A stretch of 64,000 nt of DNA from an alpha proteobacterium U9-1i (GTDB lineage Bacteria; Pseudomonadota; Alphaproteobacteria; Caulobacterales; Aquidulcibacteraceae): positions 744,001 to 808,000 of the forward strand of contig BBSY01000003.1 of NCBI GenBank assembly GCA_000974665.1. The letters are read 5' to 3'. The position numbers were made by a program, and so were the translations under genes. The notes under the pieces were generated by a model, which had not been told where the DNA came from, ran no database searches, and saw only the letters and a program-made list of their open reading frames with translations. Below are positions 46,838 to 49,233 of this stretch, piece by piece. Every line of letters starts with the position of its first letter. Positions within the stretch are counted from its first letter, which is position 1.

Positions 46838-48265
46838 ATGAACGCGCCCGCCAAATCCTCAAGTTCAGACGTCGAGATCGTGACGTTCGGCTGCAGGCTC
46901 AATGCCTATGAGAGCGAAGCGATGCGCGCGCTCGCCGGCGAAGCGTCGCTCTCAAACGCTTTGATCTTCAACACCTGCGCCGTCACCAACGAAGCGGTGC
47001 GCCAAGCCCGCCAAGCCATCCGTCGCGCGCGCCGCGAACGGCCGGACGCTGAAATCATCGTCACCGGCTGCGCCGCGCAGATCGACCCTCACAGCTTCGC
47101 GGCGATGCCGGAAGTAAGTCGCGTCATCGGCAATTCCGAAAAGATGACAGCTTCCGGCCTCGCGCGCAGCGAAGAACGCGTGCGTGTCGCCGACATCATG
47201 GCCGTGCGCGAAACCGCGCCGCATCTGATCGATGGCTATGCAGAACGCACCCGCGCGCATGTGCAAGTGCAGAACGGTTGCGACCATCGCTGCACGTTTT
47301 GCATCATCCCCTACGGACGCGGAAATTCGCGTTCGGCGGCGGCCGGCGATGTGGTCGCGCAAGTGCGCCGCCTCGTGGACAACGGCTATCAGGAGATAGT
47401 TCTCACCGGCGTCGATCTCACCTCCTGGGGCGCCGATCTTCCGGGGCAACCCGCGCTCGGCAATCTCGTCGCGCGCATTTTGAAGCTCGTGCCGGACCTC
47501 AAGACGCTTCGCCTCTCCTCCATCGACGCGGTGGAGATGGATGCAGCTTTGTTCGATCTTGTGACCACCGAGAAACGCGTCGCGCCGTATTTGCATCTCT
47601 CGCTGCAGCACGGCGACGATCTCATCCTGAAGCGCATGAAGCGCCGCCACGCGCGCGCGCAAGCGATTGAGTTGTGCCAACGTGTGAAATCCGCCCGCCC
47701 AGAGATCGCCCTTGGCGCCGATCTCATCGCCGGCTTCCCCACCGAAACCGACGCGCACTTCGCGAACACATTGGCGCTGATCGAGGAATGCGATCTCGCC
47801 TTCGTGCATGCTTTCCCGTTCAGTCCGCGCGAAGGCACGCCCGCCGCGCGCATGCCACAACTTGATCGCGCTTTGATCAAGCACCGCGCCGCGCGCCTGC
47901 GCGAAGCGGGCGGTGCGGCGCTACAGAAGCACCTCGCCCGCTGGGTCGGCCGCGAGGCTGACGCGCTGGTGGAGAAGGATGGCTTCGCGCGTCTGCCGGA
48001 TTTTACGGGCGTGCTCTTCTCCCCCTCCTCTCAAAAGGAGGGGGCCGGGGGGTGGGGTGAACCTCCGAAGCCTGAAAGTCTTGGCGCGACGCACGCAACG
48101 GCAAACGCTGGCGCTTCACCCCACCCCCTACCCCCTCCCCCACCGGTTTGCTCCGCAACCCGGCCATCAGAGAATCCCGATCGCAGCGCGATCGGGAGGG
48201 GGAGTGGGATCAAACTTCGCTTCACCGCGCATGACGGCGCGCATCTGATTGGCGTGGCCGCATGA
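46838..48265 (+). CDS. mtaB: tRNA t6A37 methylthiotransferase MtaB with in-frame repeat insertion
   Basis: A 475-residue radical-SAM enzyme converting t6A37 to ms2t6A in tRNAs reading ANN codons. The N-terminal MTTase domain has three cluster cysteines in TFGCRLNAYE, FNTCAVTNE and VTGCAAQ. The radical-SAM motif is CDHRCTFC, followed by IIPYGRGNSRS. The C-terminal TRAM domain starts near residue 370 but is interrupted: residues about 395-456 (SPSSQKEG to GRGSG) are encoded by a 186-base palindromic repeat, after which the domain resumes with IKLRFTAHDGAHLIGVAA. Typical MtaB is about 410-430 residues. The stop overlaps ftsY (ATGA). Confidence 0.93.
   Translation: MNAPAKSSSSDVEIVTFGCRLNAYESEAMRALAGEASLSNALIFNTCAVTNEAVRQARQAIRRARRERPDAEIIVTGCAAQIDPHSFAAMPEVSRVIGNSEKMTASGLARSEERVRVADIMAVRETAPHLIDGYAERTRAHVQVQNGCDHRCTFCIIPYGRGNSRSAAAGDVVAQVRRLVDNGYQEIVLTGVDLTSWGADLPGQPALGNLVARILKLVPDLKTLRLSSIDAVEMDAALFDLVTTEKRVAPYLHLSLQHGDDLILKRMKRRHARAQAIELCQRVKSARPEIALGADLIAGFPTETDAHFANTLALIEECDLAFVHAFPFSPREGTPAARMPQLDRALIKHRAARLREAGGAALQKHLARWVGREADALVEKDGFARLPDFTGVLFSPSSQKEGAGGWGEPPKPESLGATHATANAGASPHPLPPPPPVCSATRPSENPDRSAIGRGSGIKLRFTAHDGAHLIGVAA
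48019..48204. repeat. palindromic repeat element inserted in frame in mtaB
   Basis: A 186-base (62-codon) block bounded by inverted CTCCCCCTCC (48019-48028) and GGAGGGGGAG (48195-48204). It contains further inverted pairs: CCCCCTCCT / AGGAGGGGG (48021-48029 / 48036-48044), GGGGGTGGGGTGA / TCACCCCACCCCC (48048-48060 / 48116-48128) and TCCCGATCG / CGATCGGGA (48175-48183 / 48189-48197). Base composition differs sharply from the gene around it. The pattern matches the style of small palindromic repeats of alphaproteobacterial intergenic regions. I find no other copy in this window. Confidence 0.85.
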
Positions 48266-49233
48266 TTTGGGGATTGTTCGGCAAGAAGGACAAAGAGGCC
48301 GCGGCGAAGGAGGAGAAATCCGGCGTCGCGCGGCTGTTCGAGGGCTTAGCGAAATCCTCGTCCAAGCTGGCAGACGGCGTCGGCGCCATCTTCACCAAGC
48401 AGAAGCTCGACCGCGCCGCCATCGACGCGCTCGAAGAAGCGCTCATCGCCTCCGACATGGGCCCCGCCGCCGCGCAGCGCATCGCCGCAGCACTTGAGAA
48501 AGAGCGCTTCGACAAAGAACTCGGCGTCGATGAAGCACGCAAATTCCTCGCCGGTGAAATCGCCGACATCCTGCGCCCGCGCGAAGCCGCGCTCGACCTC
48601 AACAGCGGGCCGAAGCCGCGCGTCGTGCTGGTGATCGGCGTCAATGGTTCCGGCAAAACCACGACCATCGGTAAGCTGGCGAAGCTGCTCACCGACAGCG
48701 GCGCAAAAGTCGTCATCGGCGCCGCCGACACCTTCCGCGCCGCTGCCATCGAACAATTGCAGACCTGGGCGCAACGCGCAGGCGCTGAGTTCATCGCGTC
48801 CAAGCAAGGCGCCGACGCCGCCGGCATCGCCTTCGAGGCAGTGAAGCGCGCGAAGGAAACGAACGCCGACGTCGCCTTGATCGACACGGCCGGGCGCCTG
48901 CAAAACAAGACCGAGCTGATGGCCGAGCTCGCCAAGATTATCCGCGTCATGCGCAAGATCGACGAGGACGCCCCGCACGAGACGTTGCTGGTGCTTGACG
49001 CCACCGTCGGCCAGAACGCCCTCAGCCAAACCGAGAGCTTCCGCGCCGTCGCCGATATCACCGGGCTGGTGATGACGAAACTCGACGGCACCGCCAAAGG
49101 CGGCGTGCTGATCGCGCTGGCCGAACGCCACGCGATCCCGATCCATTTCGTCGGCGTCGGTGAAAAAGCGGAAGACCTCCAGCCGTTCAATGCCGATGTG
49201 TTTGCGCGCGCGCTGGTCGGCGCTGGCGACTAA
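48262..49233 (+). CDS. ftsY: signal recognition particle receptor FtsY
   Basis: A 323-residue SRP receptor GTPase that docks the SRP-ribosome complex at the inner membrane. A short charged N-terminus (GLFGKKDKEAAAKEEKSG) replaces the long acidic A-domain of E. coli. The NG domain has GVNGSGKTTTIGKLA, DTFRAAAIEQL, DTAGRLQNK and TKLDGTAKGG. Its ATG overlaps the mtaB stop, so it is translationally coupled to mtaB; the partner gene ffh lies 5 kb upstream. The stop overlaps that of the convergent cyclophilin-like gene by four bases. Confidence 0.97.
   Translation: MIWGLFGKKDKEAAAKEEKSGVARLFEGLAKSSSKLADGVGAIFTKQKLDRAAIDALEEALIASDMGPAAAQRIAAALEKERFDKELGVDEARKFLAGEIADILRPREAALDLNSGPKPRVVLVIGVNGSGKTTTIGKLAKLLTDSGAKVVIGAADTFRAAAIEQLQTWAQRAGAEFIASKQGADAAGIAFEAVKRAKETNADVALIDTAGRLQNKTELMAELAKIIRVMRKIDEDAPHETLLVLDATVGQNALSQTESFRAVADITGLVMTKLDGTAKGGVLIALAERHAIPIHFVGVGEKAEDLQPFNADVFARALVGAGD

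Follow-up and report, generated by a model that had tools for sequence, protein, structure and literature searches.

A dispersed palindromic repeat inserted in frame in mtaB of the alphaproteobacterium U9-1i, and its possible origin from DUF559 nuclease genes enclosed by palindromes

Palindromes in frame within repair and RNA genes have precedents in Rickettsia palindromic elements (RPEs) and in GTAG/CGTC REPs (PMC3733652). RPEs are described as palindromic sequences of about 100-150 bp that lie both between genes and in frame within the genes of conserved proteins (PMC2229807, PMC10969869, PMC3767692), and the R. japonica paper leaves open whether they enter hotspots. GTAG/CGTC REPs are described as head-to-head dimers, dispersed and mainly intergenic, with many intragenic copies in genes of DNA synthesis, repair and replication and some in RNA genes; the recB genes of two Xanthomonas are reported to be hit by REPs at about the same site (Di Nocera 2013, PMC3733652). 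The CIR repeats of Caulobacter and its relatives are described as absent from the interior of genes, with GANTC conserved and every frame closed by stops (PMC2229807, PMC10969869). The repeated filling of one enzyme loop by unrelated repeat families, and the link of such repeats to DUF559 nuclease genes, go beyond what was found in print.

The window analysed is a stretch of 64,000 nucleotides from the U9-1i genome (GCA_000974665.1, contig BBSY01000003.1, positions 744,001 to 808,000). Its preliminary description reported a 186-base palindromic repeat inserted in frame in mtaB. The features of this locus are:

46838..48265, + strand: mtaB, tRNA t6A37 methylthiotransferase with insert; 475 aa; TIGR01579, Radical_SAM, UPF0004
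48019..48204, + strand: in-frame palindromic repeat element, type A, long variant; codes for residues 394-456
48021..48044, + strand: left terminal hairpin CCCCCTCCTCTCAAAAGGAGGGGG, from the sequence, its codons and the 27-unit alignment
48045..48060, + strand: G-run box CCGGGGGGTGGGGTGA, conserved across 27 aligned units
48061..48114, + strand: variable spacer; spacers vary from copy to copy
48115..48204, - strand: right inverted unit, consisting of a C-run box and a terminal hairpin with two nested hairpins
48262..49233, + strand: ftsY, from the open reading frame list; overlaps the mtaB stop (ATGA)

Assignment of the first open reading frame to MtaB is borne out by NCBIfam model TIGR01579 (419 bits against a cut-off of 357), and the frame that overlaps its end we take to be ftsY. 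The block at 48019-48204 is real: its 186 nt keep the mtaB frame open and its ends form a perfect 10-base inverted repeat (CTCCCCCTCC / GGAGGGGGAG). The further inverted pairs reported inside it are also present, namely a 14-bp pair within 48048-48128, the left hairpin and a nested hairpin at 48175-48197, and the folding energy of the loop gives z = -5.3 against dinucleotide shuffles. The block comprises two inverted units, a dimer, rather than one palindrome. The loop of the left hairpin avoids TGA; the common TTGA loop would give TGA in the mtaB frame. Being in frame, the insert would yield a disordered loop rich in Gly, Pro and Ser: AlphaFold2 assigns a pLDDT of about 30 to residues 398-453, between TRAM strands 391-394 and 457-465, in a model of modest quality (16 sequences, mean pLDDT 67).

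The insert, open in frame, belongs to a dispersed family of palindromic repeats, type A. Similarity and motif searches placed type A at 23 places in the U9-1i genome (4.05 Mb, five contigs), 22 of them besides mtaB, contrary to the possibility that the element had no other copy. The motif TCACCCCRCCCC has 37 matches in this genome and 0 for a reversed control, and a covariance model of the unit, itself built from U9-1i copies, showed the places again. A unit consists of a hairpin with a G-run box behind it, and units are paired, facing one another across a variable spacer; plus and minus units are so arranged at nearly all places, C2:1825775 showing a single unit. The consensus of 27 units contains neither a GTAG nor a CGTC tag. 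At mtaB the copy is of a longer form, its right terminal loop holding two additional hairpins; it has two full-length and further partial relatives in the genome, an alignment over all 186 nt reaching only two other places (C2:777302 and C3:21066). Model R1, which was built in part from the mtaB copy itself, matches 48020-48069 (+) and 48107-48203 (-).

The expectation of a mobile, mostly intergenic repeat agrees with the gene calls: 20 of the 23 places lie outside called genes, the three inside being in the genes of MtaB, TrmB and RsmE, even though 83% of the 800 kb sampled is called coding. The gene calls come from a purpose-built model of codon usage, for which the window served as training set; it missed the DUF559 frames running through type A in L014 (U9-1i), L179 and L199; if L014 is counted as inside a gene, 19 places rather than 20 are outside. 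Among 61 further places in five genomes of the genus (G013, G018, G020, G003, G002), 10 are inside called genes, where frames are open by construction. A DNA search found type A in 15 of 19 genus genomes and in 0 of 12 others of the order; by the unit model it is scarce in part of the genus, with no match in G015 and one weak match in G001. All three called genes in U9-1i encode RNA-modifying enzymes, but confinement to such enzymes was rejected, since further in-frame copies occur in helicases, PolA, GlyS, UvrD, UvrC and probably GltB. The names GlyS, Lhr, UvrC, TrmB and RsmE are backed by Pfam domains, and those of UvrD, PolA and GltB are presumed; the matches in GltB (L203) and a UvrD-like protein (L181) are uncertain, lying at predicted N-termini. 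This wider range of host genes agrees with the published bias towards repair and RNA genes. UvrC of U9-1i (L312, G000:C1:51854) holds a weaker, related palindrome in frame, the inner end of which, GCGCTCAATTCCGA, resembles by eye the DUF559-bearing unit of L311 and the mtaB insert of L024. Across 864 kb, 63 tight hairpins (stem of at least 10) were detected, 21 of them in called genes; besides the nested mtaB hairpin, L391 is the only in-gene hairpin of the C/G-run kind, indicating that in-frame copies are rare per genome.

The source of mobility is likely to be a composite of palindrome, DUF559 (Vsr-like) nuclease gene and inverted palindrome, of which the short repeats would be nuclease-less derivatives. 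U9-1i has a DUF559 gene (PF04480, 77 bits; L311, 1069-1542, - strand) between two inverted palindromic units, with its final codons supplied by the palindrome itself; the enclosing unit is related to type A, not exact type A. In the genus, none of the enclosed DUF559 genes seen has exact type A ends; type A there only follows DUF559 genes whose frames run through it (L014, L179, L199). One of these is the second DUF559 frame of U9-1i (L014, 1203 onward; G000:C5, about 75000), which comes after a presumably lgt-like gene, continues through a complete type A element, and was matched by the second query only in a tblastn search. Elsewhere in the genus, DUF559 genes are enclosed in L355 and L181 and flanked on both sides, by eye, in L399, the only DUF559 locus in the 800-kb sample. 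The enclosing units are inverted units of one repeat in L311, L355, L181 and L400; the association was examined for type A and related units.

A gene was scored as enclosed if the inverted repeat around it exceeded by 2 or more bases those in each of 40 shuffles. By this measure, 16 of 26 plasmid DUF559 loci (Alphaproteobacteria, Deinococcus, cyanobacteria) are enclosed by inverted palindromes, as are 19 of 32 when six genus loci are added, three of the six (L399, L199, L179) failing; the controls gave 0 of 15 neighbouring genes (Fisher p 5e-5) and 2 of 208 small genes drawn from U9-1i and not from the plasmid hosts (Fisher p 3e-16). The 26 plasmid loci comprise 8 of 16 and 18 of 39 records matched in annotated plasmids; the queries were themselves enclosed copies, so the enclosed fraction is biased, and we judge the 16 enclosed loci to represent about 13 independent contexts. 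The 10 loci that are not enclosed by the test include both gammaproteobacterial ones, and nine of them have, by eye and without a shuffle control, a one-sided C/G-run hairpin of at least 7 bp. Twelve alignment columns are invariant in 18 of 18 DUF559 copies, including E, Q, D, E, D and H, which we take to be the catalytic residues of the nuclease motif. In Sphingomonas parapaucimobilis such a unit, with type-A-like ends, separates sufB from sufC (L400, 1201-1660), and in Deinococcus psychrotolerans another separates paaD from paaZ (L423, 965-1318). On a Pseudanabaena galeata plasmid (L426, 47-4912) a palindrome-DUF559-palindrome lies in frame within a 1621-aa DNA methylase of the restriction-modification (Eco57I/MmeI) type, just before the SAM motif DPACGSGHF. 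A link of DUF559 to palindromes or transposition was not found in the titles and abstract beginnings searched, a scope that excludes most subscription journals. DUF559 is a testable candidate mover for palindromic repeats.

An unlikely alternative is that these are ordinary REP-like repeats moved by a RAYT-type (Y1) transposase, with DUF559 as cargo or as a gene that prefers palindromes. For GTAG REPs, movement by RAYTs is the presumed mechanism (PMC3733652), and U9-1i does have one Y1 transposase. However, this gene lies among another repeat, GTGACACACAC...GTGTGTGTCAC, with no type A visible by eye in 3.3 kb; type A lacks the GTAG and CGTC tags; and the enclosure of DUF559 recurs in three phyla. 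A RAYT was rejected as the mover, the sole Y1 match of the genome not being flanked by type A (by eye). The repeat that accompanies the Y1/RAYT-like gene (L051; G000:C2, about 1062500-1065800) is REPIN-like; by eye, two copies precede the gene and one follows it.

The history of the mtaB site was followed across 30 genomes of the genus, 28 of which have an mtaB ortholog, the other two (G007 and G010) being 57% and 65% complete. The loop is readable in 26 genomes, in 25 by script and in L048 by eye; L033, which begins a palindrome, and L038 were left out at contig ends. With palindromic loops defined by z below -2.5 and a perfect stem of at least 9, 10 of the 25 script-read loops qualify; the control, 189 stretches of 150 nt taken from mtaB cores, gave 2. 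In total, 14 of 26 loops are element-derived, of at least three kinds: the ten just mentioned, a half unit (L043), two degraded copies of type B (L042, L045), and a third kind of palindrome, read by hand (L048). The other 12 loops are short linkers. The inserts belong to different families and use different frames, and types A and B have no obvious common sequence. Type B is itself dispersed, with 59 matches in G003, at least 100 in G026, 34 in G013, 20 in G020, 6 each in G000, G016 and G017, and none in G002. All seven type B mtaB loops (L034, L035, L039, L040, L042, L044, L045) contain YGCCGGCR, described as the ScmA methylation motif and as linked functionally to the DUF559 protein VsrA (PMC12907096).

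In keeping with the preliminary description, which called the segment unlike any MtaB, the insert is not common to the mtaB genes of relatives. Among 80 named mtaB loci, labelled Alphaproteobacteria in nearly every case, 79 have an end that lacks an insert, with a tail of 115-143 aa from the GFP motif; the eightieth, L082, is the contig-cut copy of a genus member (G019) and wholly contains L033. Other genes have been filled in the same manner. Of the loops read by script in the genus, 14 of 26 in TrmB (before the SAM motif), 8 of 22 in RsmE (before VGPEGG) and 11 of 19 in an Lhr-type helicase are palindromic, the script having failed to parse 3 of 29, 8 of 30 and 11 of 30 loci, respectively. 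Outside the genus, none of the 16 TrmB loops parsed from 26 loci satisfied both palindrome criteria.

The mtaB palindromes lie about 60 nt upstream of the mtaB stop, in a gene pair with no intergenic room, and unrelated palindromes at this one site are what would be expected if an RNA hairpin between mtaB and ftsY were selected for processing, attenuation or stabilisation, any palindrome being able to serve. This explanation is improbable, in that the same filling is found inside TrmB, RsmE and Lhr, 12 of the 26 readable mtaB loops have no palindrome, and degraded copies stay as linkers in L042 and L045.

Even less probable is one insertion in the ancestor of the genus that most lineages have since lost or overwritten, although U9-1i, the deepest branch of the genus tree, carries type A. 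The 12 empty loops resemble those of outgroups; families and frames differ among the inserts; and on a tree of the MtaB core and FtsY, loop state requires at least 9 changes (7 if scored as filled or empty only), while a single clade of carriers of A and A-like units is rejected (p-AU 6.9e-5); one insertion is disfavoured on this test. L022 and L023 have similar spacers (by eye) though apart on the tree, so some of the recurrence may be due to lateral exchange. Expansion of a tolerant loop by low-complexity sequence with no mobile element, for which the Pro/Gly-rich peptide might speak, has a negligible probability; for the mtaB copy it is refuted, since that DNA family recurs at 22 further places, most of them not in called genes.

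The explanation that we consider probable is that a mobile palindromic repeat derived from a DUF559 composite filled the MtaB loop in frame by way of break repair. The insert would be a copy of a non-autonomous mobile repeat in which a short spacer separates two inverted units, each a hairpin plus a G-run. It would have inserted into the loop preceding the final strands of the TRAM barrel, in place of a native linker of about nine codons. No target duplication was visible by eye at four filled/empty mtaB pairs, which have diverged; replacement of the linker without one suggests break repair over classical transposition. Insertions may occur at many places and survive outside genes, or in frame in tolerant surface loops, which would account for the loops of MtaB, TrmB, RsmE and Lhr having been filled many times by unrelated families. 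More tentatively, these observations may point to an unnamed, widespread class of element in Alphaproteobacteria, Deinococcus and cyanobacteria, in which a DUF559 nuclease gene between inverted palindromes could spread by cutting and repair, enter genes in frame and shed dispersed, nuclease-less repeats like REPs and RPEs, repeatedly rebuilding loops of RNA-modifying and DNA-repair enzymes in the genus. An enzyme surface loop refilled repeatedly by unrelated selfish palindromes is a natural experiment, one that separates the tolerance of a site from the history of a repeat family.

Type A shares two-armed palindromic structure with the CIR of Caulobacter and relatives, but membership in that family was rejected: GANTC occurs in 6 of 20 copies only, 32 of 102 frames are open in 17 copies, and in-frame copies exist. 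The ERIC and RU repeats of enterobacteria are likewise intergenic repeats with open frames and some copies inside genes, but they are other sequence families in other hosts, and their abstract reports no recurrent single loop (PMC2759123). VsrA of Caulobacter crescentus (CCNA_02930) belongs to the same DUF559 family, a PD-(D/E)XK Vsr-like endonuclease, and is treated as a likely mismatch-repair nuclease; enclosing palindromes are not mentioned in the main text, where 'palindrom' occurs 0 times (PMC12907096). A REPIN moved by a RAYT would be expected to flank the RAYT gene; type A does not flank the one Y1 gene of U9-1i (by eye). Type A units resemble GTAG/CGTC REPs in occurring mostly as inverted dimers, unlike them in having neither tag. 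The likeness to RPEs proposed at the outset fits in behaviour, both being palindromic, intergenic and in frame inside protein genes, with the RPEs compared by description. The repeats of the genus differ from RPEs in being GC-rich, in their host, a genus with one member labelled Hyphomonadaceae, and in that several unrelated families occupy one loop of one enzyme.
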